From a virus: a DNA stretch of 20,386 nucleotides. The stretch covers positions 1 through 20,386 of the IMG/VR virus record IMGVR_UViG_3300028840_003745; one strand, given 5' to 3'. Position numbers and translations under genes: made by a program. Shown here piece by piece: positions 6,970 to 20,386 of the stretch (position 1 is its first letter; each line of letters starts with the position of its first letter). Below the pieces are notes generated by a model, which worked only from the letters and a program-made list of their open reading frames with translations, ran no database searches and had not been told where the DNA came from.

Positions 6970-7120
6970 GCTAGAGATCATATGCGCAAACCCTTACTGT
7001 GATGTGTCATTCCCATATAAGCGGTCAAAGTACACGTTCAAAGTGTTAACTTGCAGTAAGGGTTGCCATATGGTAATTGTCAAACGAAGATTAGAGAAGC
7101 GAGGAGTGAAGTTTGATTGA
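6944..7120 (+). CDS. Small zinc-ribbon protein (58 aa)
   Basis: The ATG at 6944 follows GGAGG (6933-6937) at a good distance. The product reads MVVVKRRHRLEII, then CANPYC, a basic linker, and CSKGC followed by a basic helix (VIVKRRLEKRGVKFD). Two C-x4-C or C-x3-C knuckles about 25 residues apart make a treble-clef or zinc-ribbon-like finger with basic flanks, fit for DNA or RNA binding. The gene fills the otherwise empty space between 6970 and 7112 and overlaps the primase start by 8 nt, as expected in this tightly packed operon. The family is not named. Confidence 0.6.
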   Translation: MVVVKRRHRLEIICANPYCDVSFPYKRSKYTFKVLTCSKGCHMVIVKRRLEKRGVKFD

Positions 7121-8039
7121 TTACTTCGATGATAGGGGAATCAAGTACACTGTTGGTCCCGCGAAGAATGTGGCGAAGGGGCGCATCGGGATAAAGTGCC
7201 CCTTCGCAGGGTGTCAAGACAGGTCTAACCATTGCGGTATAGAATTATCAACTCTCCGTTTTCATTGCTTCGTATGCGGTGAAAGTGGTGACGCGGTCAA
7301 ACTCATAAGGGAAATTGAAGAGTGTAGCTTTAAAGAAGCGAAGGGGATCATTCGAAGGTTTAATTTGGGTGCTGTTACACGACCAACACCGACCGGCGGT
7401 TCCTCTCCTCTCTCCGCCGGGGAAGTGGACAGCACTCAAATTAAGACTTTGAGTTATCCAAAAGATGTGGTCACATTGAAAGGGATGCCAAAGTCACACC
7501 GAAGATATCTATCAAAGAGGGGATTTGATCCAAGTTATATTTGGAAGAAGTATAAACTCGCAGCAACTTCTCACTTGGGTCATCGTTTCAAATATCGAAT
7601 TCTGATACCATACTTCTATAAGCGGAAGATGGTGACATTCACTTCGAGAGACATCACGGACAAGTCTGAACTTAAATATCAACACTTGTCAGATGAAGAA
7701 TCATCTATACCTATCAAATCCCTTTTATATGGCGAAGAGTTTTGTGGCGACAAGGTGATAATAGTCGAGGGGCCGATGGACGTTTGGCGGATAGGGGATG
7801 GCGCTTGCGCATTGATGACTACGTCGATGACAAATGATCAGATGTTGAGGTTGATTGATATGGGGGTGATGATGGTATATATACTCCTTGATTCTGACGC
7901 CGTATTACAGGCCAGACGGCTCAAATTCCAGTTGAGGGGTATCATACCCTATGTTGAGGTGATATCGATGGATAGGGGCGATCCTGCTGATTCATTGACA
8001 CGTACGAATATCAAGTTCCTGAGGGGATTATTAAAATGA
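7113..8039 (+). CDS. DnaG-type DNA primase (zinc finger + Toprim)
   Basis: This 308-residue protein has an N-terminal CHC2-like zinc module (Cys29-x4-Cys34, His51-Cys52-x2-Cys55 in FHCFVCGESGD) followed by a Toprim core: IIVEGPMD (Glu219), LLDSDA (Asp260, Asp262) and a third acidic site GDPAD (290-293). It would lay RNA primers at the fork. It is shorter than cellular DnaG and has no helicase-binding tail and no fused helicase; the separate DnaB-type gene at 9201 supplies that. The linker around residues 90-105 is Pro/Gly/Ser-rich. The TTG start at 7113 is supported by GAGGAG (7101-7106). Its stop overlaps the next start by 4 nt (ATGA). Confidence 0.88.
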   Translation: MIDYFDDRGIKYTVGPAKNVAKGRIGIKCPFAGCQDRSNHCGIELSTLRFHCFVCGESGDAVKLIREIEECSFKEAKGIIRRFNLGAVTRPTPTGGSSPLSAGEVDSTQIKTLSYPKDVVTLKGMPKSHRRYLSKRGFDPSYIWKKYKLAATSHLGHRFKYRILIPYFYKRKMVTFTSRDITDKSELKYQHLSDEESSIPIKSLLYGEEFCGDKVIIVEGPMDVWRIGDGACALMTTSMTNDQMLRLIDMGVMMVYILLDSDAVLQARRLKFQLRGIIPYVEVISMDRGDPADSLTRTNIKFLRGLLK

Positions 8040-9196
8040 GCGAAGAGCATTCATATGAAGTAGATCATGTAACTATTCCCGGTGAAGTTGCTTTCAATCC
8101 AAAGTTAAAGTATGTTGATATGTTCGTCTTTTGGGTTATTAAAATGATCAATGACTCTCCATCAAACAGGGATAGATATTTCTATGGATCGAATAAATGG
8201 TTAGCTAAAGTTTTGGGGGTTACAGAGAGAACAGTTATTAGGTCGATTAATTCACTTATTAATGAGGGTTATCTGAAGAGGTCAATTAAAAATAACAATA
8301 AGAGAGTTCTTCAAATTGATAGTCGATATGTTAAAACGAAGAAGGATCTCATATCTCGATACAATAGAAGTGAAGGCATGAGGGGGTATGACAATTCTGT
8401 CACTGGGGGGTGTCAAAAATGTCATACAATAAATAATAATAAATTAAAATACACTTTTATTAAAAATAAAAGTGTATTGCTCGCTTCGCGAGCCGGACCC
8501 CAGAAAAAGAGGGTTGTTTACAAAGGGTTGAAAGAGTTAGGAAGTTTCTTTGACGAGAGAAGTGAAGAAGTTGAGAAATGTATAAAGTATTGGAATTCAC
8601 TTGGTAAGCCATTCACATCTCATAAAGTTGATGAGGGTTCGAAGATAATAAGGAGGTCGAGAAAGTTAGTTCGTCAACTCCTTCAAGAGGGTTACAAGGG
8701 GGTGCAGATTCGCAAGGCGATGGGAGATTGGCACTCATTATTGAGAGAGAGGAATACGGTATTCAACATCAATTACACTTACTTTAATAAGAAACAAAAT
8801 TTGCCAGACTTCATTAAACCTGATAGGAAGGTGGTTGCACAGATACAGGCGCACAAGCCGAAGTTGAATATGACATCCCCTTTCAATGAAGCTATCAAAG
8901 GGTGGGGCCACTTGAAGCGGAAGTATATGAAGCGCGATGATATGAAGAGGTTAACTAGTGCAATCGCTTCAATGTGGTCTAATAGACATAGCGGTGGAAG
9001 TCTGGATGATTTCATGACGGCCTCGAAGAAGTGGGCAGCAAGGTTTGACCACTGGGTGATAGCATATGACAAGAGGGATCGATTGGAATATGTGATCAAT
9101 AAGATACCGACCCATTATAACTCAAGTTACATAACATCTAACCAGTTTTGGAATGATTTTGTTCCTGAGAAGTTAAAAGAATACTATGGGGGATGA
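8036..9196 (+). CDS. Winged-helix replication initiator / helicase loader-like protein
   Basis: This 386-residue protein has an N-terminal winged helix: residues 52-81 (NKWLAKVLGVTERTVIRSINSLINEGYLKR) are a clear recognition helix plus wing. Phage initiator and helicase-loader proteins (lambda O, DnaD and phi29-like replisome organisers) have this layout. The middle (120-175) is low in structure and is encoded by the origin-like DNA at 8386-8493. The C-terminal half is helical and basic, with many Trp, and probably contacts the helicase. It sits between primase and DnaB-type helicase with ATGA overlaps, supporting an initiation or loading role. The ATG at 8036 overlaps the primase stop. No ATPase motif is present, so it is not a DnaC-type loader. 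Confidence 0.7.
   Translation: MSEEHSYEVDHVTIPGEVAFNPKLKYVDMFVFWVIKMINDSPSNRDRYFYGSNKWLAKVLGVTERTVIRSINSLINEGYLKRSIKNNNKRVLQIDSRYVKTKKDLISRYNRSEGMRGYDNSVTGGCQKCHTINNNKLKYTFIKNKSVLLASRAGPQKKRVVYKGLKELGSFFDERSEEVEKCIKYWNSLGKPFTSHKVDEGSKIIRRSRKLVRQLLQEGYKGVQIRKAMGDWHSLLRERNTVFNINYTYFNKKQNLPDFIKPDRKVVAQIQAHKPKLNMTSPFNEAIKGWGHLKRKYMKRDDMKRLTSAIASMWSNRHSGGSLDDFMTASKKWAARFDHWVIAYDKRDRLEYVINKIPTHYNSSYITSNQFWNDFVPEKLKEYYGG
8386..8493. other. Probable replication origin inside the initiator gene
   Basis: In order there are: an 8-bp inverted pair GTATGACA (8386-8393) and TGTCATAC (8420-8427) with further TGTCA words at 8398 and 8411; an A/T-only run (8429-8450, AATAATAATAAATTAAAAT); a perfect 14-bp inverted repeat AATACACTTTTATT (8448-8461) with its partner at 8465-8478 around AAA; and directly after, GCTCGC-TTC-GCGAGC (8479-8493). 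Iteron-like words, an unwinding tract and hairpins inside an initiator gene match the lambda O/ori arrangement. Origin function is an inference. Confidence 0.55.
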
Positions 9197-9200
9197 TAGT

Positions 9201-10769
9201 ATGGCGATACTCAGACGTGAAGGTGGCGAAGGTGGTGCGGTAGAAGAGAAGATTGTCGCTTGCATGATAATAAGCACAAGGTTCTGTTTTGAAGTTGAGA
9301 GGCGTTACAAGCCTGATTATATAACTTCTAAATATATATCAACTGTTATTGGTTGGATACTTAGATATTTTGATGAATATGGGAAACATCCCGGTGCGAC
9401 GATAATGGACATATATGAAGTTGAGAAGAGTGAACTTGAGCGAAGTGAATCGAGGATTATATTCACATTGCTTGCGAGGATTCGTCGGAAATATAATAAG
9501 AAGAATCTAAATGTTGATTATATACTTGATAAGGCGAAAGAGTATTTCAAGCAGAGGGCTACCACCTTGCTATTTGAACGCGGTGAGAAGTTGGTCGCTG
9601 CTAGTCGATTGGCTGAGGCGGATGCATTAGTTGAGGCTCATAAAGAAGTGTCCGTGTCAACATCAAAGAGGTTTAACCCGTTTGATAGGGATTCGATTAT
9701 AACTTTTAGAAGTGAAAGTTTGGAGAACAGATTATTCTCCATGCCAGACTATCTTGGAGAGTATTTGGGATCACTTGAGAAAGGGTGGCTTGTATCAATA
9801 GCTGGTCCAGAGAAGAGGGGTAAGACGTGGTGGTTGATGGAATTCGCATACCAGGCATTAATGGCAGGGTTGAGGGTGATCTTCTTCTCTCTTGAAATGG
9901 CAGACTATGCGGTAAAAGTGAGATTGTATAAGCGGCTGACGGGATTTTTGACCGATAGGGAGTTATTGAGAATTGAGAGGTCGAATATTGATTATGTCAG
10001 GTACCCTGTATTCGATTGTGAATGGGGGCGTCATGGGAAGTGCAAGTTGAAGCGGGGTAAGCGGGTGAGATTGGAAAGTTATGATGATTTCTCCCCAAGT
10101 TTAAGGTACAAACCTTGCACAGATTGTAGAGTGAAAGATCCAAGGAGATATAAGACCGACTATTGGTTCGACTATATACCATTGAAAAATATAAAGACGA
10201 TGACGTTGAAAGCGATAGAGAGAAAAGTGAGTGACTTCACTTCCCTTTACAGGGATAACTTTAGGGTGAGGACATTCCCAAGATTCAGCGCGACTTTCAA
10301 AGACATAAAGAGGGAATTGGATGATCTGGCATATTCAGAAGATTTCATACCGCAAGTTGTGGTGGTCGATTACTTCGATATAATGGCAAGTGAGACATTC
10401 TCATATCAAAGTGAGAGGACCCCTGTTAATGCGACTTGGATGACCGGTGGGCAATTGGCGGCTGAACGGCACTGTTGTGTTATTACAGGTGATCAGACGA
10501 AGATGAAGAGTCGGAATAAGATTAATATAGGGGAAGATGATACAACTGAAGACAAGAGGAAGGATGCTCACGTTGACATGAAGGTAGTGTTGAATCAGAC
10601 GGGAATGGAGTACAATCATGGGATCATGCGCTTGAACTTGTTGTTTCACAGGCACAGGGAGACGCCGAAGAACTTACAGGCGATGGTCACTCAATCATTA
10701 AAGTTCGGTCAACCGTTGATGGATAGTGAACGGTTTTGGCGTGAAGAGAAAGGGGGTGAATCGGAATAG
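9201..10769 (+). CDS. DnaB-type replicative helicase with zinc-like insertion
   Basis: This 522-residue protein has an N-terminal helical domain (1-150) and a RecA-type core: Walker A GPEKRGKT (202-209), the DnaB-typical FFSLEM (228-233) and Walker B VVVVDYFD (386-393). A late H-x-H-R stretch (LLFHRHRETPKN) may hold the arginine finger region. It would unwind DNA 5' to 3' as a ring. Between FFSLEM and Walker B there is an unusual insertion with Cys273, Cys281, Cys306 and Cys309 (C-x7-C ... C-x2-C), probably a zinc ribbon. The ATG at 9201 is chosen because GGGGGATGAT lies just before it; an ATG at 9186 lies before that site. The frame overlaps nothing downstream and the operon ends here. Confidence 0.85.
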   Translation: MAILRREGGEGGAVEEKIVACMIISTRFCFEVERRYKPDYITSKYISTVIGWILRYFDEYGKHPGATIMDIYEVEKSELERSESRIIFTLLARIRRKYNKKNLNVDYILDKAKEYFKQRATTLLFERGEKLVAASRLAEADALVEAHKEVSVSTSKRFNPFDRDSIITFRSESLENRLFSMPDYLGEYLGSLEKGWLVSIAGPEKRGKTWWLMEFAYQALMAGLRVIFFSLEMADYAVKVRLYKRLTGFLTDRELLRIERSNIDYVRYPVFDCEWGRHGKCKLKRGKRVRLESYDDFSPSLRYKPCTDCRVKDPRRYKTDYWFDYIPLKNIKTMTLKAIERKVSDFTSLYRDNFRVRTFPRFSATFKDIKRELDDLAYSEDFIPQVVVVDYFDIMASETFSYQSERTPVNATWMTGGQLAAERHCCVITGDQTKMKSRNKINIGEDDTTEDKRKDAHVDMKVVLNQTGMEYNHGIMRLNLLFHRHRETPKNLQAMVTQSLKFGQPLMDSERFWREEKGGESE

Positions 10770-10880: not shown

Positions 10881-11909
10881 ATGGCAAAAAAAGTAACTGA
10901 AGCAATGGTAAAGAAGGCTCTCAAGGCAATCAATGGAAACAAGAAGCTGGTCAAGATCACTGGCAAACTTTCATTGGCTGGAAGTCTCGATGATCTCATG
11001 AAGAGATTGTGTGAGGCCATTGAGGAGATTGGTGAAGATAAGATTGATCTTCTTGATGATGCAGCGTATGAAGTCTACGTCAAGGTTGCTGAAAAACTCG
11101 GACTCTCTGAAGATGAGGACGAAGATGAGGACGAAGATGACGAAGATGAAGATGAAGATGACGAAGATGAAGATGAAGATGACGAAGATGAAGATGAAGA
11201 CGAAGACGAAGATGAAGACGAAGACGAAGATGAAGATGACGAAGATGAAGACGAAGACGAAGACGAAGACGAAGACGAAGACGAAGACGAAGAAGTTGAC
11301 CTTGATAAGATGGACAAAGAAGAGATGTTGGAACTTGCCAAGGACAATGCTGATGAGCTTGGCCTGAAAAAGAAGGATCTTGCGAAGCTAAAGAAGTTGA
11401 AGGTGAAGGCACTTCGCAAGAAACTTCAAGGATTGATCGATGCTGCTGGTGAAGATGAAGAGGAAGAAGAGGAAGATGAAATGTCTGAACTGGCACAGTT
11501 GATCATGGGAGTGGTTGGTCAGGCGTCTCGCAAAGAAGTGGAATCTGCCCTTGATGAGATTGAGTGGCCGAAGGCTGTAAAGAAAGAGAAAGTAGCAAAG
11601 AAAGAAGAGGCCAAGACCAAGGATAAAGGTAAGAAGAAGGCTTTAACGAAGTCTGCAATATCAAATGCAACCATGCTGAAGATTTATAAAGCATGGGTCG
11701 GCACAGGCAAAGGCAGCGTTGGGGATGTCTACGAAAAGATCAAGAAGCTAAAAGAAGTTGATGATCATGAGAATCCGAAAAAGTTTCTCAACAATCTTCT
11801 TTATGCATGGAAGAATGGGAAGCGGTTGCCTGATGGGTATGAGAGTGTTAAAGGCGGAGGTAAGAAGGGGAAGAAGAAGAAAGGTGGCAAAAAAGGTAAG
11901 AAGAAATAG
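10881..11909 (+). CDS. Acidic-tract protein with Lys/Gly tail (342 aa)
   Basis: The ATG at 10881 follows AAAGGAGGAAG. Regions in order: a helical basic N-terminus (1-75); an unbroken run of 62 Asp/Glu residues (77-138) encoded by GAA/GAT/GAC/GAG repeats; a helical segment EEMLELAKDNADELGL...KALRKKLQGLI (147-185) resembling a SAP/HeH-type helix-extended-loop-helix; a second short acidic run near 190; a helical domain; and a C-terminal tail of Lys and Gly. Such charge separation fits a DNA mimic, a histone-like or DNA-condensing protein, or a scaffold, but I do not recognise a family. It has its own promoter and terminator, suggesting high or separately timed expression. The repeat may vary in length by slippage. 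Confidence 0.8.
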   Translation: MAKKVTEAMVKKALKAINGNKKLVKITGKLSLAGSLDDLMKRLCEAIEEIGEDKIDLLDDAAYEVYVKVAEKLGLSEDEDEDEDEDDEDEDEDDEDEDEDDEDEDEDEDEDEDEDEDEDDEDEDEDEDEDEDEDEDEEVDLDKMDKEEMLELAKDNADELGLKKKDLAKLKKLKVKALRKKLQGLIDAAGEDEEEEEEDEMSELAQLIMGVVGQASRKEVESALDEIEWPKAVKKEKVAKKEEAKTKDKGKKKALTKSAISNATMLKIYKAWVGTGKGSVGDVYEKIKKLKEVDDHENPKKFLNNLLYAWKNGKRLPDGYESVKGGGKKGKKKKGGKKGKKK

Positions 11910-11949
11910 CAACCATTTTTGAGGTTGAGGAGGAGATAATATTATGATG

Positions 11950-11988
11950 AAAAGGCACACTGGTATTGACTGGTGTGCCTTTTTTTTT
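11950..11988 (+). terminator. Strong intrinsic terminator
   Basis: AAGGCACAC (11952-11960) pairs perfectly with GTGTGCCTT (11973-11981), followed by an unbroken T run to 11988. It ends the acidic-tract transcript. An open frame with ATG at 11944 and GAGGAGGAGATAAT before it runs through the hairpin, so it is not the true start of the clamp gene. Confidence 0.85.
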
Positions 11989-11995
11989 GTCTTTT

Positions 11996-12028
11996 GGAGG
12001 TGGAGTGATGACGGAGGTGGAGTGATGA
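11996..12028 (+). repeat. Tandem duplication of ribosome site and start codon
   Basis: GGAGGTGGAGTGATGA occurs at 11996-12011 and again at 12013-12028, separated by one C. The first copy starts a five-codon frame (MTEVE, 12008-12025) whose TGA overlaps the second ATG (12025) as TGATG. The second copy starts the clamp gene in frame. This looks like a minimal leader cistron coupled to the clamp start. Confidence 0.75.
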
Positions 12029-13104
12029 TTGTGAGAAGGGGAAAGAGTGATGGTAAGTTGAATGATCACGGTTATGATCATGTGAAGTTAAAGGAACTTG
12101 ATAAGAAGATTCGTCATATAGTTGGAGTTGTTATGGAGACCAAGGAGTCAAACAATATATACTTTCTTGGCGACAGGGTTGCTTGCTATAATGACGATGT
12201 CTTCGCTTTTGTGAAGTTTAAGTCTGGTATGAATGTGGCAGTTCATGGTGTAAGTTTTTTGAATATCGTTAGTAGAATATCTGTTGATGAATTGGGAGTA
12301 TTTATAGAAGATGACGGAGGTGTATTGAAGATTGAAGGGAAGGGGTATAACTTTAAGATTCCAAAGTCTGATTATGACCAGATTTCGTCTGCCCTCGATA
12401 TGCTGACTATTGATAAAGTGAAGTTTAAGACCCCTCCAAAAGACTTTGCAGAAGGACTTGCTTCTTGTTTGTTTAGTGTTGGTAAAGATACAGGGCAGTT
12501 TGGATTTTCTTGTCTTCAAGTTGATGGATTGAGGATCATCTCAAGTGATAATATTCGTGTCAGTAGGTATAGTATGAGTGGGGAGTTTAAGAAGTCATTC
12601 ATGATAAGTGGAAAGGCTGTGGAAAGTATTTTGAGATTTACTGGTGGAAAGATAGATGGATTTCATAAAGGAAAGTCATGGCTATACTTTAGAAGTGGCA
12701 GTGACGTGATATGCGCAAGGGTTATCAATCTTACTTTTCCCGACAGTAGTGAAGTATTTAATTTTAGCGGTATCAATATAAAGTTTCCAAAACTCCTTAG
12801 CAGCGCTGTTGATATGATATCCGTCATAGTGAAAGAAGATTTTGATTATCAGCGAAGGGTCACTGTAGAAGTTAGTGGTGATGAGATTACGATTCGAGGG
12901 GAGGGCGAGGCTGGATTTGGTTATCAGTCGATCCCTTTTGACAATACTAAAAATATTAACGTGAAGTTTAAAATAAACCCCGACTTCTTTCGTGCGATAC
13001 TATCAAAGACGACGAAGGTGAAGATTGGCACTAGCGAAAATAAAGTGATGTTCAGACAAAAAGCATTTGAGCACTTGATTGGTGTTTGGAGGGGTGATGA
13101 TTAA
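12025..13104 (+). CDS. DnaN-like DNA polymerase sliding clamp
   Basis: The 359-residue length fits three clamp domains of about 120 residues (DnaN is about 370). CLQVDGLRIISSDNIRVSRY (about 166-185) matches the DnaN pattern for the domain-2 strand region (VATDGHRLA-like), and ARVINLTFPDSSEVF matches the KLIDGKFPDY-like segment. Overall identity is low, so this rests on length, order and context: clamp loader and DnaE polymerase follow. It would encircle DNA and tether the DnaE polymerase, which carries a QMGLW clamp-binding motif. The ATG at 12025 is chosen from the duplicated ribosome site; an upstream in-frame ATG (11944) is inside the terminator. It overlaps the methyltransferase start by 8 nt. 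Confidence 0.7.
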   Translation: MIVRRGKSDGKLNDHGYDHVKLKELDKKIRHIVGVVMETKESNNIYFLGDRVACYNDDVFAFVKFKSGMNVAVHGVSFLNIVSRISVDELGVFIEDDGGVLKIEGKGYNFKIPKSDYDQISSALDMLTIDKVKFKTPPKDFAEGLASCLFSVGKDTGQFGFSCLQVDGLRIISSDNIRVSRYSMSGEFKKSFMISGKAVESILRFTGGKIDGFHKGKSWLYFRSGSDVICARVINLTFPDSSEVFNFSGINIKFPKLLSSAVDMISVIVKEDFDYQRRVTVEVSGDEITIRGEGEAGFGYQSIPFDNTKNINVKFKINPDFFRAILSKTTKVKIGTSENKVMFRQKAFEHLIGVWRGDD

Positions 13105-13762
13105 ACCATACTATGAGACGAAGTTGGGGAAGTTATATCATGGTCATAACTTGATCATTATGCCATATCTTCCGAAAGTTGACCTCCTATTGACAGATCC
13201 ACCATTTGGAATTGGCAACTACATTCAACTTGGTGGGAATGTAAGTGGCAGAGGGAAGTACAAGGGCGTCGCCGTCCCTTGGAACGATAGTGTTCCGACT
13301 AATAAGTTCTTTAATCTTGTACGTATGAAGTCAAAACACAGGATAATATGGGGTGCTAACTTCTTCAACTGTTTCGAAGGGGATGGCGGAGCAATAGTGT
13401 GGTTGAAGAAGCAGAATATGCCAAACTTTAGTAAGGTTGAGATTGCGAGCTGTACGCACTTGAAGAAGACGGAGTTGATTCACGGAATTCACTGGACTGG
13501 TAGTGAGGCGAGTAGGGACGCGGAGACGGATCACCCGAGTGAGAGGCCTCCGGAATTATATGCATGGTGTATTAACTATGTTCCGAAAGTTGAGACCGTG
13601 ATGGACCCTTTCCTTGGCAGTGGGTCTGTCGCTATAGCGTGCGAACGACTTAACAAGAGGTGGTACGGTATAGAGTTGTCAGAAGAATATTGTGAAGATA
13701 TTGCAAAGAGGGTTGAGAAGGAAGTCAACAAACCGAAACTATTTCAAGATCAGATGGGGTGA
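13097..13762 (+). CDS. DNA adenine-N6 or cytosine-N4 methyltransferase (beta-type order)
   Basis: The 221-residue protein has the catalytic motif IV TDPPFG (33-38) first and the AdoMet motif I MDPFLGSGS (169-177) near the C-terminus, with HPSERPPEL just before it and IELSEEYC after; this is the beta-class order. It would methylate an amino group of A or C in phage DNA, protecting it from host restriction or marking it. The target domain between them is short, so the recognition sequence is probably short. The frame opens upstream at 13079, but GGAGGGG before ATG 13097 decides the start. No restriction partner is seen, so it is an orphan enzyme. It overlaps the clamp end by 8 nt. Confidence 0.85.
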   Translation: MIKPYYETKLGKLYHGHNLIIMPYLPKVDLLLTDPPFGIGNYIQLGGNVSGRGKYKGVAVPWNDSVPTNKFFNLVRMKSKHRIIWGANFFNCFEGDGGAIVWLKKQNMPNFSKVEIASCTHLKKTELIHGIHWTGSEASRDAETDHPSERPPELYAWCINYVPKVETVMDPFLGSGSVAIACERLNKRWYGIELSEEYCEDIAKRVEKEVNKPKLFQDQMG

Positions 13763-13764
13763 TC

Positions 13765-14727
13765 ATGAAGAAAGTGATTAAGAAGAAGGTGAAGAGTGAC
13801 AATCTCTCCCTTGCTGTGAAGTATAGACCATTAGACTTTGATCATGTCTATGGTCAAGATGGGGTGAAGGAACTTCTAATAACACACTTGGCGTTGGATA
13901 GTTGTCCAAGGGTGATGTTATTTTATGGGCCGAGGGGTTGTGGGAAGACTACTGTTGCGAGAATAGTTGCTAACATGCTTGGTGCAAGGGGTAGAGATCT
14001 GGTAGAATTTAACATTGCACATACAGGTGGGAAGGATAGAGCGAGAGAGATCGCCGATAATGCCAACTATGCACCATTTGAGTCAGATGTGAAGATTTAC
14101 ATCTTTGATGAATGTCATAGGGCAACGAAAGACTTTCAAGATGCTTTGTTGAAAGTGATTGAAGAACCTCCACCATATGTCTACTTCATATTCTGCACAA
14201 CTGAAGAGGATAGGTTATTGGCGACCATAAAGAGTCGTTGCACCCCATTTGAATTTTCACCATTGAAGTCTGCTGATCTGAAAAAGGTGATTGATAATAT
14301 ATTAGAATCAGAAGATGAAGTGATTGACACTTCGCTTGTCAGAGAGATAATTAGTCAGGTGGATGGTGATTGTCGAAGGGCGATCAAACTGCTTGAGATG
14401 ACTTTTGGTGTTGAAGAACCCAATATTGAAAGTATACTTCCAATTGCAAGTCGAAAAGATATAAGGGAGTTGTGCCGAGCGTTGCTTGATGGCAAGGGCT
14501 GGAAGATTGTATCAGGGATGTTAAAAGGTTTGAGAGAAGAAGATCATGAACAGATTCGCAGGGCTGTTCTTAGATATATGGGGAAAGTACTTTTGAGTGG
14601 TGATAATATAAGGGCATATATGATACTTGAAGCATTCTCTGAGCCTTGGCATAGTGTAGGTGGTTATAATGGATTGATTTATTCTTGTTATGCAGTAGCG
14701 AAGGCGAAGGAGTTGATGAAGATATGA
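13765..14727 (+). CDS. DnaX-like clamp loader ATPase
   Basis: A 320-residue AAA+ clamp loader: LAVKYRPLDFDHVYGQ opening motif, Walker A GPRGCGKT (55-62), Walker B IFDECH (113-118), sensor 1 FCTTE (143-147) and the SRC arginine-finger motif IKSRCTPFEF (155-164). It would open the clamp and place it on primed DNA. The zinc module of bacterial DnaX is missing and the tau C-terminus is absent, so it resembles a minimal, RFC-small-type loader. No separate delta subunit is visible; the complex may use one gene product or host subunits. The ATG at 13765 is preferred over a GTG at 13759 because GGGGTGATC precedes it. The last 4 nt overlap the polymerase gene (ATGA). Confidence 0.88.
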   Translation: MKKVIKKKVKSDNLSLAVKYRPLDFDHVYGQDGVKELLITHLALDSCPRVMLFYGPRGCGKTTVARIVANMLGARGRDLVEFNIAHTGGKDRAREIADNANYAPFESDVKIYIFDECHRATKDFQDALLKVIEEPPPYVYFIFCTTEEDRLLATIKSRCTPFEFSPLKSADLKKVIDNILESEDEVIDTSLVREIISQVDGDCRRAIKLLEMTFGVEEPNIESILPIASRKDIRELCRALLDGKGWKIVSGMLKGLREEDHEQIRRAVLRYMGKVLLSGDNIRAYMILEAFSEPWHSVGGYNGLIYSCYAVAKAKELMKI

Positions 14728-17700
14728 GTTTTTGTCATCTGCACGTCCATAATGAATTTTCACTTCTTGATGGTTTTGGCCGCGCTGAACACTATGCGAA
14801 AGAAGCAAAAGAGAAGGGATTTAAGTATATCGCCCTAACTAATCATGGCAACATAGATGGCTTGATTAAGTGGCAGAAGGCTTGTGATAAGTTTGGGGTT
14901 GTGCCAATCTTTGGTGTTGAATGTTATATCGTTGAAGACTACACTGTGAAAGAGAAGGGGGAGAAGAGGGGTCACATAACCTTATTGATAAAGAATGAAC
15001 AGGGATTTAGAAATGTTTGCAAACTTCTCACGACAGCAAACATAGAAGGCTTCTACTACAGGCCGAGAATAGATTGTGATCTCCTGCTTCAGCATCTTGA
15101 TGGACTTGTAGTGATGACTGCCTGTATTAGCTCTTTCATTGGTAAAGATTGGGGCGCGAGGCTATTTGAAGATATTCATGATGAGATAGGGGGCGATCTA
15201 TATGTAGAAGTAATGCCGCACAATGCAGAAGAACAAGTTGAGATAAACAAGTTGGCGAAGGCATTCTACGATGAATATGGTGTATCTATGGTGGCGACTA
15301 ATGATTGTCACTATGTTAAGCGTCATCAATGGGAGTCACAAGAAGTACTACTCGCACTGAACAGGAAGGATACATGGGACAATCCGGAGAGGTTCAAGTT
15401 TCCGTTCAATGGTCTCCATCTGCGAACAGAAGTTGAGATGCGCAAAGCATTTAAGAAGCAAGGTTGCTTGTCGAAGTCTGCCTATTCTCGTGCAATTAAG
15501 AACACTATGAGGGTTGCAAAGAAGTGTTCTAATTTTAGAATAGAGAAGCGGGCGATCAGACTGCCAAAGATTGATGTTGGGATGGATCATGCCGAGTACA
15601 TCAGACGATTGTGCGAGCGTAAGATAAGATCAATGCCAATTAGTAGGCGGGGCAGGTTCATATATCGTGCGAGATATATGAGGGAACTTGATCTAATAAA
15701 GAGGAAAGGTTTTGAATCGTACTTCGTTCTCTTCAGGAAACTTATAGAATACTGTGACAGGGAAGGGATATGGAGAGGTCCGGGTCGTGGCAGTGTCGGT
15801 TGTTCACTAGTAGCTTACCTGCTTGACATAACGAATATTGATTCATTGAAGTACAAGTTGCCAATAGATAGGTTCATATCAGAAGATAGAATTGACTATC
15901 CTGATATAGATATGGACTTCGAAGATAATAAGACGGATCTTGTTCGGTCATATCTTGAAGAAGAGTTTGAGGAAGAAAGAGTTTTTGGTGTGTCGACTTT
16001 CAGCAAGATGAAGGGGAGGGCTGTCGTCCGTGATGTTTCACGAGTCTTTGGTGTTCCACTTTCTGAAGTTGATGAGTTTGCAAAGTCTGTTGATGAGGTT
16101 TCAAAACAGGAGAAGGGTTCTTTTGACTCAGTTAGTAGGGCGGCTAATGAAGATATTGGTCGAGATTTCAAGAAGAGATATCCAAGGGTTGTCAAAAATG
16201 CGATTGAACTTGAAGGTCAGACGAGACACGCAAGTCAACATGCTGCTGCAATAATAGTTGCCGCAGAAGATCCGACGAATAATTCTGTTGGAGTACTTCG
16301 CAATGGTGTGTTGATGTGCAATTGGGATATGGATGATGTAGAGTATATGGGATTCGTCAAACTTGATATTCTGAAGTTGAATACGATGACCATATTACAT
16401 GAGGCATCTAATCTTATTAAGGAAAACAAGGATGAAGAGATTGATTTAAAACATTTGAAGTTTGATGATGATTCTGTATATGCAGAATTGAATAAAGGGA
16501 ATGTGACGGGGTGCTTTCAGGTCAGTGGTTGGTCGACGAAGAAAGTGGCGATGAATATAGAAGTAGAGAACTTTCAACAATTATCTGACGCCATAGCATT
16601 GTCAAGACCGGGACCGAAAGATAGTGGTATGACAGATGAGTATGTTAGGAGGCGACATGGGGGCAAATGGAAGAGTAAACATCATTTATTTGAAAAAGAG
16701 ACCCGTAGTACATACGGCGTGGTTGTATATCAAGAACAGGTTATGGGCATTCTTCGTTCTGTGGCTGGTATGTCTTATTCAGATGCAGATCGGATCAGAA
16801 AAGTTATTGGCAAGAAGCGTTCTAAAAAAGAGTTTGCTCCTTTTAAACAGCAGTTTATTCTCGGTGCGCTTAAAAGAAGAACTTTCACTCGTAAAGAAGC
16901 GGAAGATTTTTGGTCTGGGCTAGAAAATCATTCTCGATATAGTTTTAACCTCGCCCATAGTATTGGATATTCAATGGTGGCATATTGGGATCTCTACTTG
17001 AAAGTGCATTATCCACTTGAGTTTATATGTGCCTCACTCACTTATGGTCCTGATGATAAAGATAAGAAAGAGGAGTTGATTGAAGATGCGAAGCGGATGG
17101 GATTGAAGATAATGCCACCGAAAGTTGGTATATCAAAGTTTCGACAGTGGGTAGTTAATGGGGATGGGCTTTACGTCCCTTTCATAGAGATTGATGGCAT
17201 TGGTCAGAAGTCAGAGGGATTGATTGAAGAGGCTAGTGATAACAGCACTAGTCAGATGGGCCTATGGGGTGAGATTGAACAGGAGTTGAGTGGTAAGGCG
17301 AAGCGTGTCAGGGGTATACTTGAGAAGGTTGGCGCTTTTGATGAGTTGGCAGTGCCAGAAGACATAGAGAAGTATGTAAGCTATGACTTTTGGCAGAATC
17401 CTGTGAAGATAAATAAGATAAGATTTAAAGTGAACAAGCGGCTGTTAAAGTGTAAGTCTTGCCCACTTTGGAGGGAATGCACTCTCCCTGTTCAACCATC
17501 ACCGGGAAAGTATAATGTGATGGTTGGTGGGGAAGCTCCCGGTTTCAATGAAGATAAGGTGGGTAAGGGTTTCGTTGGCCGTGCTGGTGATCTTCTATGG
17601 GAGAAGTTAAGTGAATATGGATTGAAGAGGGGGATGTTTCATATCACAAATTGCAATAAGTGTTATCCAAAGTCTTCAAAGACGCCATCACATGAAGAAG

Positions 17701-18002
17701 TCAACATATGCTTTAAAAAGTGGATGAGGGGTGAGATTGAATCGATAGTGTGTGGTTTGATGTTGGCTTTTGGAAATACTCTTCGATATGCATTGACTGG
17801 GAAGATGTCTGGAATTCGTGCGATGAGTGGGTCAACTGAATTGATAGACTTTGAATATGGAAAGTTGAAAGTTGTATGGTGTGTTCATCCTGCCTCTGTT
17901 CTTCGTGGTGATGAAGAGAATAAGTTGGCTTTTGAAAAAGGGTTGAAGAAGTTTGTTGAAGAGTTGAGGATTGCACAAGGGTTTGATGAGGTGATGTTTT
18001 GA
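14724..18002 (+). CDS. DNA polymerase III alpha (DnaE-type) fused to family-4 uracil-DNA glycosylase
   Basis: A 1092-residue replicative polymerase. Residues 1-210: PHP domain with HLHVHNEFSLLDG, TNHGNIDG, GVECY, HITLL, TACIS and NDCHY, so the metal ligands look intact. Residues 330-560: C-family active site with GRGSVGCSL, YPDIDMDFED (Asp395/Asp397) and VKLDIL (Asp548). Residues 815-838: helix-hairpin-helix (IDGIGQKSEGLIEEA). Residues 844-848: QMGLW clamp-binding motif. The usual OB-fold and tau-binding C-terminus are replaced by a family-4 UDG (906-1081): Fe-S cysteines C910, C913, C980 and C996, GGEAPGFNED and FVGRAG (935-955), TNCNKC, and HPASVLRG (1055-1062). UDG removes uracil from DNA. 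The start at 14724 overlaps the DnaX stop; an in-frame TTG at 14685 lies inside the loader gene. Both domains appear complete. Confidence 0.92.
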   Translation: MSFCHLHVHNEFSLLDGFGRAEHYAKEAKEKGFKYIALTNHGNIDGLIKWQKACDKFGVVPIFGVECYIVEDYTVKEKGEKRGHITLLIKNEQGFRNVCKLLTTANIEGFYYRPRIDCDLLLQHLDGLVVMTACISSFIGKDWGARLFEDIHDEIGGDLYVEVMPHNAEEQVEINKLAKAFYDEYGVSMVATNDCHYVKRHQWESQEVLLALNRKDTWDNPERFKFPFNGLHLRTEVEMRKAFKKQGCLSKSAYSRAIKNTMRVAKKCSNFRIEKRAIRLPKIDVGMDHAEYIRRLCERKIRSMPISRRGRFIYRARYMRELDLIKRKGFESYFVLFRKLIEYCDREGIWRGPGRGSVGCSLVAYLLDITNIDSLKYKLPIDRFISEDRIDYPDIDMDFEDNKTDLVRSYLEEEFEEERVFGVSTFSKMKGRAVVRDVSRVFGVPLSEVDEFAKSVDEVSKQEKGSFDSVSRAANEDIGRDFKKRYPRVVKNAIELEGQTRHASQHAAAIIVAAEDPTNNSVGVLRNGVLMCNWDMDDVEYMGFVKLDILKLNTMTILHEASNLIKENKDEEIDLKHLKFDDDSVYAELNKGNVTGCFQVSGWSTKKVAMNIEVENFQQLSDAIALSRPGPKDSGMTDEYVRRRHGGKWKSKHHLFEKETRSTYGVVVYQEQVMGILRSVAGMSYSDADRIRKVIGKKRSKKEFAPFKQQFILGALKRRTFTRKEAEDFWSGLENHSRYSFNLAHSIGYSMVAYWDLYLKVHYPLEFICASLTYGPDDKDKKEELIEDAKRMGLKIMPPKVGISKFRQWVVNGDGLYVPFIEIDGIGQKSEGLIEEASDNSTSQMGLWGEIEQELSGKAKRVRGILEKVGAFDELAVPEDIEKYVSYDFWQNPVKINKIRFKVNKRLLKCKSCPLWRECTLPVQPSPGKYNVMVGGEAPGFNEDKVGKGFVGRAGDLLWEKLSEYGLKRGMFHITNCNKCYPKSSKTPSHEEVNICFKKWMRGEIESIVCGLMLAFGNTLRYALTGKMSGIRAMSGSTELIDFEYGKLKVVWCVHPASVLRGDEENKLAFEKGLKKFVEELRIAQGFDEVMF

Positions 18003-19165
18003 AAATTATAAGAAGGCGAGATATAAGAAAAGTTTATAGAAGATTTACCTTTATAGATCTATTTGCTGGTATTGGTGGATTTAGAATTGGGTGTGAAAGA
18101 AATTTTATGAAGTGTGTTTTTTCAAGTGAGATAGATAAATATGCTTGTGAGACTTATCTTAGAAATTTTGGTGAAGATCCAATGAATGATATAATAAAAA
18201 CTCCTTCTCATTTAATTCCTTCTCATGATTTATTATGTGGTGGTTTTCCATGTCAGACTTTTAGTATAGCGGGAAAGAGGAAAGGATTTGATGATATAAG
18301 AGGAACTTTATTTTTTGAGATAGCGAGAATATTAAGAGATAAGAGACCAAAAGTTTTCTTACTTGAAAATGTTGAAGGGTTAATATCGCATGATGGAGGT
18401 AGAACTCTTTCTATAATTTTAGGAATATTATCAAGAAGTATAAATGGTAATAATTTATTATTTCTTGATAAAGATTCTTTGAAGTATGATGTTTATTGGA
18501 CTGTTTTGAATAGTGCTGATTTTGGGCTAGCTCAAAATAGAAGACGTATATTTATTGTTGGTTTTAGAAATGATTTAAAAATAATAGAATTTAGTTTTCC
18601 GAGAGGTGATAATAATAAAGTTATTATTGGTAATATTTTAGAAGAGAAAGTTGATGAGAAATATTTTATTACAAAAAGTGAAATGCAAAGACTTGTAAAA
18701 AGAAGAAGTGGTTTTTGTGGATATTTAAATAATTATAATGATAAGTGTAGTACTCTTGTTTCTGGAAGTTATGGTAAAGGTGGATATATGGCTAATCATA
18801 TTTTAATAAGAGGTAAAATTAAAAAGAAAGATAGGGCTTATACTTTAGGTTATAGTAGTCATAAAGGTGGATATATGGCTAATTATTTATCTATTGATAG
18901 TAAGTGTAACACAGTTTTACCTGAATTTGCAAAAAGAAGTAAATTGACTTTTAATCAATTTAGTCATCAATTCAAAGATAAAAATCAAAGAATTAGAATA
19001 TTTACTCAAAGAGAGTGTGCAAGACTTCAAGGATTTCCCGATAGTTTTAAAATTCATAAAAAAGATAATCAAGCATATAAACAGATAGGGAATGCAGTTT
19101 CACCGCCAGTAATATATGAGATAGTAAAGAATATTTTGAAGGTTTTAAAAGAAAGTAAAAATTAA
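17999..19165 (+). CDS. DNA cytosine-5 methyltransferase
   Basis: A 388-residue C5-methyltransferase with motifs in order: I FIDLFAGIGGFRIG (18-31), IV GGFPCQTFS with catalytic Cys85, VI ENV (123-125), VIII QNRRRIFIVGFR, IX RECARLQGFPDSF, X QIGNAVSPPV. It transfers a methyl group from AdoMet to cytosine C5. The TTG start overlaps the polymerase stop; GAGGTGAT precedes it. The gene is visibly more AT-rich than its neighbours (codons such as AGA, TTA and TTT), pointing to recent transfer. The target-recognition region contains a repeated KGGYMAN segment. No restriction gene is adjacent; it is an orphan enzyme probably protecting phage DNA. Confidence 0.93.
   Translation: MKIIRRRDIRKVYRRFTFIDLFAGIGGFRIGCERNFMKCVFSSEIDKYACETYLRNFGEDPMNDIIKTPSHLIPSHDLLCGGFPCQTFSIAGKRKGFDDIRGTLFFEIARILRDKRPKVFLLENVEGLISHDGGRTLSIILGILSRSINGNNLLFLDKDSLKYDVYWTVLNSADFGLAQNRRRIFIVGFRNDLKIIEFSFPRGDNNKVIIGNILEEKVDEKYFITKSEMQRLVKRRSGFCGYLNNYNDKCSTLVSGSYGKGGYMANHILIRGKIKKKDRAYTLGYSSHKGGYMANYLSIDSKCNTVLPEFAKRSKLTFNQFSHQFKDKNQRIRIFTQRECARLQGFPDSFKIHKKDNQAYKQIGNAVSPPVIYEIVKNILKVLKESKN
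18776..18883 (+). repeat. Direct repeat in the methyltransferase target domain
   Basis: The same 21 nt occur at 18776-18796 and 18863-18883, 87 nt (29 codons) apart and in frame, each encoding KGGYMAN. The flanking codons are similar but not identical (GSY-GKGGYMANHI versus GYSSHKGGYMANYL). This suggests a duplication in the part that reads the DNA target. Confidence 0.7.
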
Positions 19166-19191: not shown

Positions 19192-19707
19192 ATGGATTAC
19201 AAAAAGGATACATACGTCGACCCTGATAATATTGATCGTGAAATATTGGAGCATGGTCAACGATACATGGAATATGCGGAAGCGGCTGCTGAAGCAGATG
19301 AAGAGAAGAATCTTGCTCAGCAAAGGACTAAACTCATAAGAAGTAGAGTTGCGAGGGAAGTCAGGCGGAAGCCGAAGAAGTATGGTCTTGATGGATATCC
19401 ACCAACGGTAGTAGAGAAGATGGTTAAGGATATCGTCGAGACCCATCCGAAGGTGATAAAGGTTGATCGGCAATATTATGAAGTTTCAAAGAGGGCTTCA
19501 ATTCTTGCTAGTGCTGCTCATGCAATGGGTAGTTATAAGAAGAACTCAATTCAAAAGTATGCTGAAATGGTGTTGCGTGGATTCTTTTCAGAACCAAGAT
19601 TGCAACTTGAAAGTGATGATTATGCAAACTTGATGAGGGATAAAGGTAGAAGTAAAGAGATGTCTATTAAACAGCGGAAGTTAACAAGAAAGAAAAGGAG
19701 GAAGTGA
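19192..19707 (+). CDS. UvsY-like recombination mediator, probably leaderless
   Basis: A 171-residue helical, charged protein. Features parallel to T4 UvsY (the mediator that loads the UvsX recombinase onto gp32-coated ssDNA) are: an N-terminal KKDTYVDPDN-I-x3-I segment (UvsY: KDVFIDSTKL), a central basic helix, then HPKVIKVDRQYYEVSKRASIL (UvsY: DVLKVDTSLQYWGILLD) and a closing A-x-A-x-AMGSYKK-x-SIQKY helix (UvsY: ALDAIKSRGFAIKHI). Matching is by motif order and by the next gene being gp32-like, so confidence is moderate. No Shine-Dalgarno precedes ATG 19192, and the promoter places transcription start at that ATG. The next in-frame ATG (19267) would remove the first UvsY-like segment. It overlaps the next gene by 1 nt. 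Confidence 0.6.
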   Translation: MDYKKDTYVDPDNIDREILEHGQRYMEYAEAAAEADEEKNLAQQRTKLIRSRVAREVRRKPKKYGLDGYPPTVVEKMVKDIVETHPKVIKVDRQYYEVSKRASILASAAHAMGSYKKNSIQKYAEMVLRGFFSEPRLQLESDDYANLMRDKGRSKEMSIKQRKLTRKKRRK

Positions 19708-20386
19708 TGGCAATTAAAAGTGGCAAGGGGTCGAGCGCAAAACAAGCATTGCTCGACCGATATAAGAGGAGTACGGAGAAGAGACCGGCGATGACTTTCA
19801 AGTCTTATACTGATCCAGAGAAGACAAAGGATCTTAACTTCTTCAAGCCCGGTGAGGGTGATCATTTGATGAATATCATAAAGTATAAAACAGGTGAAAA
19901 TGATATTTATGATCCGCCCGGAACTTGGACTCACTGTTGCGAAATATTCGTTCATAAGAATGTTGGCCCCGCAAATGATATGTACTTATGCCTCAATGAA
20001 CATGGTAGTTCAACGGATACTTGTCCTATCTGTCTGGAGAGGGAGAGGTTGCGCTCTAGTGGTGAAGAAGATGATATCGTCAATGCACTTTGGCCTCAAC
20101 GCAGAACTCTTTATAATGTTGAAGTTGTAACCAACAGGGAAGAACGGAGGAGGGGTGTTCAGATCCTTGACCTTTGGTATAGCTACATGGAAGAAGTTCT
20201 ACTGAAAAAAGCACAAAAGGCAGTTAGAAAGGGAAAGAAAGAGATAAATCCAAATCTTAACTTCGCAAGTCTTGAAGAGGATGGGAAGACGATTAGTTTT
20301 GAAGTTGGCACAAAGAAGGTGAAGATACGCGGAAAGAGGGCGACGATTCCAGAGTTTGAAGAACATGAATTTATAGATCGTGATGA
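19707..20386 (+). CDS. gp32-like single-stranded DNA-binding protein, 3' end outside window
   Basis: The ATG at 19707 overlaps the previous stop (TGATG) and follows AAAAGGAGGAAG. About 226 residues are visible and the frame is still open at the window end. The N-terminus is basic with a KSYTDPEKTKDLNFFKPGEGDHLMNII segment. A zinc module follows: THCCEIFVH, YLCLNEHG and CPICLERERLR (Cys-x2-Cys), comparable to the zinc knuckle within the OB fold of T4 gp32. Aromatic and basic strands (LWPQRRTLYNVEVV, ILDLWYSYMEEVL) follow in the order expected for phage SSB. It would coat ssDNA at the fork and in recombination, working with the UvsY-like protein upstream. Confidence 0.75.
   Translation, partial: MAIKSGKGSSAKQALLDRYKRSTEKRPAMTFKSYTDPEKTKDLNFFKPGEGDHLMNIIKYKTGENDIYDPPGTWTHCCEIFVHKNVGPANDMYLCLNEHGSSTDTCPICLERERLRSSGEEDDIVNALWPQRRTLYNVEVVTNREERRRGVQILDLWYSYMEEVLLKKAQKAVRKGKKEINPNLNFASLEEDGKTISFEVGTKKVKIRGKRATIPEFEEHEFIDRD

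Follow-up and report, generated by a model that had tools for sequence, protein, structure and literature searches.

In some strains of Yersinia pestis and Salmonella enterica, an extra DnaE polymerase carries an archaeal-type uracil-DNA glycosylase (UDG; PF03167) in place of the OB domain and the C-terminal domain (CTD) (Timinskas et al. 2013, PMC3919608). This DnaE-UDG order was reported there in one sentence and for a few plasmid-borne polymerases (DnaEX). Other DnaE variants, too, are known to have lost OB and CTD (PMC3919608). SPO1, relatives of PaBG and Shbh1 have family A polymerases that carry a UDG at the N-terminus, and a role of the domain in processivity has been suggested (PMC7412058, PMC5135824). 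Bacterial replicases are reported to be blind to uracil (Wardle 2008, as cited in PMC2669801 and PMC12934983).

The stretch of DNA analysed here, referred to as the window, is a 20,386-base contig from an uncultivated virus (IMG/VR record IMGVR_UViG_3300028840_003745). Its DnaE protein has the architecture of the published DnaEX-UDG polymerases, i.e. a core of PHP, Pol3 and helix-hairpin-helix (HhH) parts followed by a PF03167-type domain that replaces OB and CTD. An earlier note on this DNA regarded a UDG fused to a C-family polymerase as new. This was not borne out, as Timinskas et al. had reported the architecture. Further reports of DnaE-UDG fusions were not found in the openly accessible literature. 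Within the searchable literature, the novelty lies in a large clade of phages whose fused UDG, judged by its sequence, is mostly catalytically intact.

We infer that the published Yersinia and Salmonella cases belong to SSU5-type phages or phage-plasmids, and the SSU5 phage polymerase was examined as a stand-in for the Yersinia example, which is probably located on a virulence plasmid. The polymerase tails of SSU5, of the Rhizobium phage RHph_Y2_11 and of Cupriavidus, Pararhizobium and Aeromonas plasmid homologues match the UDG profile (2.8e-25 to 6.6e-13); the decayed domain of RHph_Y2_11 was detected only on aligning the polymerase tail. All SSU5-type homologues examined have lost the Glu of motif A, the Asn and the His. 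The Fe-S cysteines are lost in the SSU5, RHph_Y2_11, Pararhizobium and Aeromonas copies; the dnaE of the Cupriavidus plasmid (L260) keeps three of the four, an intermediate state of decay. In contrast to these decayed copies, the UDG is mostly intact in the window clade, which is a DnaE branch of its own. With the SPO1-, PaBG- and Shbh1-type polymerases the window protein shares a UDG-superfamily domain joined to a phage replicative polymerase. Their polymerase is of family A and their UDG is N-terminal and lies in another part of the UDG tree, whereas the window combines a C-family polymerase with a C-terminal UDG.

Domain architecture of the window polymerase

A stop-free frame (14685-18002, + strand) spans the region from the clamp-loader gene to a C5-methyltransferase gene (Table 1). 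The ATG at 14724 is the likely start; it is preceded by an AAGGAG Shine-Dalgarno-like sequence and overlaps the stop of the clamp-loader gene (ATGA). Residues 880-905, singled out beforehand as the region that could refute the fusion, contain neither a stop nor a frameshift in the window sequence. We give virtually no credence to an artefact, be it a chimeric assembly or a missed stop separating two genes: apart from the record being a contig of an uncultivated virus, nothing was found in its favour, and proteins of the same architecture, 40-50% identical, are encoded on dozens of independent contigs as well as in two bacterial MAG bins. This recurrence rules out a chimeric assembly and, together with the continuous ORF, led us to reject a frameshift as well.

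Table 1. Features of the window around the fused polymerase
Feature	Position	Strand	Remarks
DnaG-like primase	7113..8039	+	
DnaB-like replicative helicase	9186..10769	+	
Sliding clamp (phrog_947)	11944..13104	+	
DnaX-like clamp loader	13759..14727	+	Stop overlaps polymerase start; same neighbour in many fused loci
DnaE-UDG fusion polymerase	14724..18002	+	1092 aa, ATG start; one uninterrupted ORF
PHP domain (PF02811)	14736..15212	+	Pfam E 2.8e-36
DNA_pol3_alpha (PF07733)	15594..16373	+	Pfam 5.5e-64
DNA_pol3_finger (PF17657)	16383..16874	+	Pfam 1.2e-41
QMGLW, clamp-binding-like motif	17253..17267	+	Putative clamp binding
Family-4-type uracil-DNA glycosylase domain	17451..17960	+	TIGR00758; PF03167 at 17511-17939
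Fe-S cysteine pair 1, C910 and C913 (CxxC)	17451..17462	+	
Motif A GEAPG with E937, plus E943	17532..17552	+	
N976 (uracil-pocket Asn) and Fe-S cysteine 3, C980	17649..17663	+	
Fe-S cysteine 4, C996	17709..17711	+	
Motif B HPASVLR with H1055	17886..17906	+	
Conserved replisome-linked protein, Cys-rich motif	19704..20384	+	Without PHROG match; judged SSB-like by eye; truncated by window end

The matches to PHP, DNA_pol3_alpha, DNA_pol3_finger and PF03167 all exceed the Pfam cut-offs, and the palm aspartates D394, D396 and D548 are invariant in the 50 fusions compared. An AlphaFold2 model of the whole protein, built with 50 relatives, has a mean pLDDT of 89.5 and was aligned by Foldseek with the Pol III alpha structure 2hpi over about 940 columns (E 3.8e-61). 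PHP, the Pol3 palm and fingers with their catalytic aspartates and the match to 2hpi assign the protein to the C-family (DnaE), as the earlier note had proposed; it is the replicative polymerase in a lineage of tailed phages. A typical DnaE1 continues past the HhH with an OB domain and a tau-binding CTD. In the window protein, no OB match was obtained by Pfam or in the model, and HhH and UDG are separated by only about 37 residues, in line with the proposed replacement of this region. The QMGLW loop has a pLDDT below 50, as expected for a linear motif that is exposed; a GFF is conserved at this position in aligned relatives, and QMGLW presumably binds the sliding clamp.

The UDG makes up the last ~185 residues of the protein. 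PF03167 matches at 1.2e-16 in the whole protein and at 6.8e-18 in the tail alone, and its 65.5 bits against a gathering score of 24.3 place the C-terminus inside the UDG superfamily. NCBIfam TIGR00758 (UDG_fam4) is the top-scoring UDG model (6.4e-29); as its 100.9 bits fall short of the curated cut-off of 125.3, we refer to the domain as family-4-type, and the family-4 assignment of the earlier note stands in this form. By sequence, the closest solved structures are the family-4 UDGs of Thermotoga, Sulfolobus tokodaii and Thermus. The UDG blocks of the AlphaFold2 model have pLDDT values of mostly 89-95, and the structure check agreed with the assignment, as Foldseek aligned the region with the Sulfolobus tokodaii family-4 UDG 4zbx over 185 columns (TM 0.81 on target, rmsd 2.3 A). 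The residues typical of family 4 are present, namely the four [4Fe-4S] cysteines, motif A GE(A/G)PG, the Asn and the His of motif B. Cysteines 910, 913, 980 and 996 as well as GGEAPG, FVGRAG and HPASVL are all where the earlier note had read them. The fused UDG has retained the residues needed for uracil binding and excision, and the continuous frame, the domain HMMs and the fold agree with a polymerase and a C-terminal UDG in one protein.

Family 4 UDGs remove uracil from both ss and ds DNA. With free family 4 UDGs (Thermus 1ui0, Sulfolobus tokodaii 4zbx, Thermotoga TM0511) the domain shares the fold, the four cysteines, motif A GE(A/G)PG, the Asn and motif B HP(A/S). It differs from them in being fused to DnaE and in the signatures of the window clade, KCYPxxxKTP and CWCxHPASVL(H/Y/R), which read KCRPPxNRTP and TFHPAxLLR in the free enzymes. 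UdgX (family 7) carries a KRRIH-type insert with a covalent His. This family was rejected for the window, which has GEAP and KCYPKSSKTPSHEEVNIC; the UdgX model reached 91.2 bits against a cut-off of 189.95. Motif A of UdgX is GEQP (PMC5295032).

Recurrence and history of the fusion

Neither the window UDG nor the entire polymerase, used as single-sequence queries, gave matches in viral or bacterial contigs, and GenBank phage records queried with the window UDG returned PolA-UDG fusions and free UDGs only, no DnaE-UDG. Alignment queries were needed because the relatives share only 40-50% identity. An alignment-based UDG scan of IMG/VR revealed a cluster of DnaE-UDG single ORFs at 38-49% identity, clearly apart from PolA-UDG fusions and free UDGs. 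With fused UDGs as the query, 165 relatives were obtained; nearly all of the 80 kept are fusions or are cut by the contig end. Two more fusions lie in bacterial MAG bins. The contig of the one labelled Sulfuricurvum also carries major head protein, portal, head-morphogenesis and terminase genes, and it is a phage or prophage. The search for the same architecture elsewhere, which the earlier note had suggested, thus yielded about 80 distinct fused domains in total, mostly from IMG/VR (124 fused ORFs were counted, a figure that includes overlapping fetches of the same contigs).

Several loci deviate from the simple fusion. In L060, L076 and L085, the two halves of DnaE are encoded by separate genes, and a free-standing UDG gene lies between them. 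The fused polymerases of L019, L041/L169, L159 and L207 are unusually long (1423-1898 aa) and contain large insertions that might be inteins or homing endonucleases; the frame of L207 ends in a stretch that looks nuclease-like by eye. In the fused member L208 (7060-7200), the frame is broken inside the UDG past cysteine pair 1 by a frameshift or deletion, and motif A is absent.

The history of the fusion was followed in quick trees of DnaE and UDG with SH-aLRT as the sole measure of support. In the DnaE tree, the window falls into a clade with good support (SH-aLRT 98), and a UDG is present in nearly all of its members. In the UDG tree, the fused domains group together (98 for the main group), apart from PolA-fused and free UDGs. 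One main clade in both trees argues for co-inheritance of polymerase and UDG. A number of related polymerases (L188, L190, L192-L194, L196, L197, L203-L205; 39-46% identity) end at about 890-970 aa, just past the HhH. They contain neither OB nor UDG, and no UDG was found nearby. Within the clade, the members without a UDG (L188, the group L190-L197 and L204) are nested or early-branching. Most simply, the ancestor of the clade would already have had the UDG, and two or three losses of the entire domain would have followed. L188 represents a clear loss since it is sister to the fused member L176, and L204 at the base of the clade could reflect an original absence of the UDG instead of a loss. 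As the deep branches, including L064 and SSU5/RHph, lack resolution, the trees do not settle a single origin of all DnaE-UDG fusions.

Replication module and gene content

The replication module of the window comprises a helicase, a primase, an initiator-like protein, a DnaB-like helicase, clamp, clamp loader, DnaE-UDG and an SSB-like protein. The neighbourhood of clamp loader, DnaE-UDG and SSB-like protein is conserved. Across loci L101-L178, a clamp was found near the fused polymerase in 23 loci, a clamp loader in 36 and an SSB-like protein in 62. A small charged protein (19192-19707 in the window) adjoins the fused polymerase in 53 of these loci. Two methyltransferase genes are rarely shared with relatives: an N4/N6-type DNA methyltransferase upstream (13079-13762) and a C5-cytosine methyltransferase directly downstream of the replication genes (17999-19165). 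Between the helicase and clamp genes lies a long Asp/Glu-repeat protein (10881-11909) with a weak match to phrog_30618.

Sixteen long relatives (58-112 kb) have one DnaE each and one PF03167 domain each, the fused one. PolA, the trimeric dUTPase PF00692 and dUTPase_2 were absent above cut-off from these records, AP endonuclease family PF01261 gave two sub-threshold matches only, and a DnaQ-type exonuclease is present in three of the 16. The absences carry little weight because the records may be incomplete. A PolA-UDG fusion of the SPO1 type was rejected for the window, given the C-family polymerase, the C-terminal UDG and the 16 related records without PolA.

Conservation and possible roles of the fused UDG

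Among 72 distinct fused domains found via UDG motifs, C910, C913, C980, C996, E943, N976 and H1055 are conserved in 72/72 each, F950 in 70/72 and E937 in 68/72 (Q in the other four). These near-complete figures are partly built in, because the UDG-motif patterns, used two motifs per scan, together cover E937, N976 and C980; C910, C913, C996, E943 and H1055 are absent from all viral search patterns. Since the UDG-motif set is biased in this way, a set obtained with polymerase motifs only was taken as the fair test. In that scan, 23 of the 80 nearest DnaEs carry a UDG. Every complete fusion has kept the four cysteines, and Asn and His are kept in 20 of the 22 complete ones. L184 (3917-7306) and L191 (3983-7399) have kept the four Fe-S cysteines with the catalytic Asn and His replaced by T and S/N, and by these residues they are natural catalysis-lost variants. 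As estimated from dN/dS, the fused UDG is shown to be under purifying selection, with values of 0.057-0.132 for the UDG domain (six close pairs where computable) and 0.057-0.086 for the polymerase part (five pairs).

The earlier note had offered two uses of the domain, uracil checking coupled to the fork and a structural use of the Fe-S fold. Both gain from the comparison, the former because most members keep the whole active site, the latter because the fold outlives the active site in two clade members and in the SSU5-type polymerases, which shows a non-catalytic use to be possible. On balance, we lean towards a UDG selected mainly for uracil surveillance, in physical connection with the phage replicase; the intact active site of most members favours this. 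As read from the sequence, polymerase, clamp, clamp loader and UDG share one replisome operon, and UDG and polymerase form one polypeptide. The UDG would sit beside the DNA being copied and capture uracil, which could stem from cytosine deamination in the template or from dUTP incorporated into fresh DNA. By excising the uracil or stalling on it, the enzyme would keep it from being passed on. The abasic site might then mainly be left to host repair, since most relatives are without an AP endonuclease of the one family tested. Unless the enzyme confines itself to binding or stalling, it would leave an abasic site at the fork, which is harmful in its own right; this counts against the reading. 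The full proposal, in which an active [4Fe-4S] UDG reads the fork DNA and excises or stalls at uracil, making the enzyme a self-checking C-family replicase of a widespread phage lineage, is tentative and in our estimate somewhat short of an even chance.

Vaccinia D4 is a UDG that serves as a polymerase processivity factor, and catalysis is not required for that role. By analogy, the fused UDG might chiefly be a DNA-binding or processivity module that replaces the lost OB domain, with uracil excision as a secondary or residual activity. The absence of an OB domain from the window protein, the fold kept without catalytic residues in L184, L191 and the SSU5-type polymerases, and the processivity aid suggested for the SPO1-type UDG domain (PMC5135824) are in accordance with this reading. 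However, the catalytic and Fe-S residues are complete in most members, and the UDG-free relatives end after the HhH, too early to accommodate an OB domain, so that we consider it rather unlikely. Because such UDG-free polymerases exist among close relatives and as sisters of fused ones, the UDG is dispensable for replication, a processivity role is not obligatory, and neither the uracil-related nor the structural role is indispensable. Besides uracil surveillance, the UDG likely has a secondary DNA-binding or structural role in lieu of the missing OB domain that would be able to outlive catalysis, as the loss of catalytic residues in L184, L191 and the SSU5-type lineage indicates that the fused fold can serve other purposes than excision.

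It seems improbable that the fusion merely tethers an ordinary repair UDG for co-production and delivery with the replisome, in the absence of any coupling to the polymerase active site. Such tethering would fit the separate UDG gene beside the split DnaE in L060, L076 and L085 and the fused copy as the sole UDG of the 16 long records, but the phylogeny points to long-term co-inheritance as one polypeptide, and breaks into separate genes are rare within the main clade.

A replicase with a built-in, mostly intact UDG would tie copying directly to base repair. If uracil surveillance holds true, these phages would possess a bacterial-type uracil-sensing replicase. It would be analogous to the archaeal family B polymerases, in which a pocket of the replicase notices uracil, and unrelated to them in fold and mechanism. 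That phages have apparently linked UDGs with polymerases of families A and C, which are unrelated to each other, suggests an advantage that recurs. The intact, catalysis-lost (L184, L191), decayed (SSU5-type) and UDG-free polymerases constitute a natural experiment by which excision and a structural role can be told apart.
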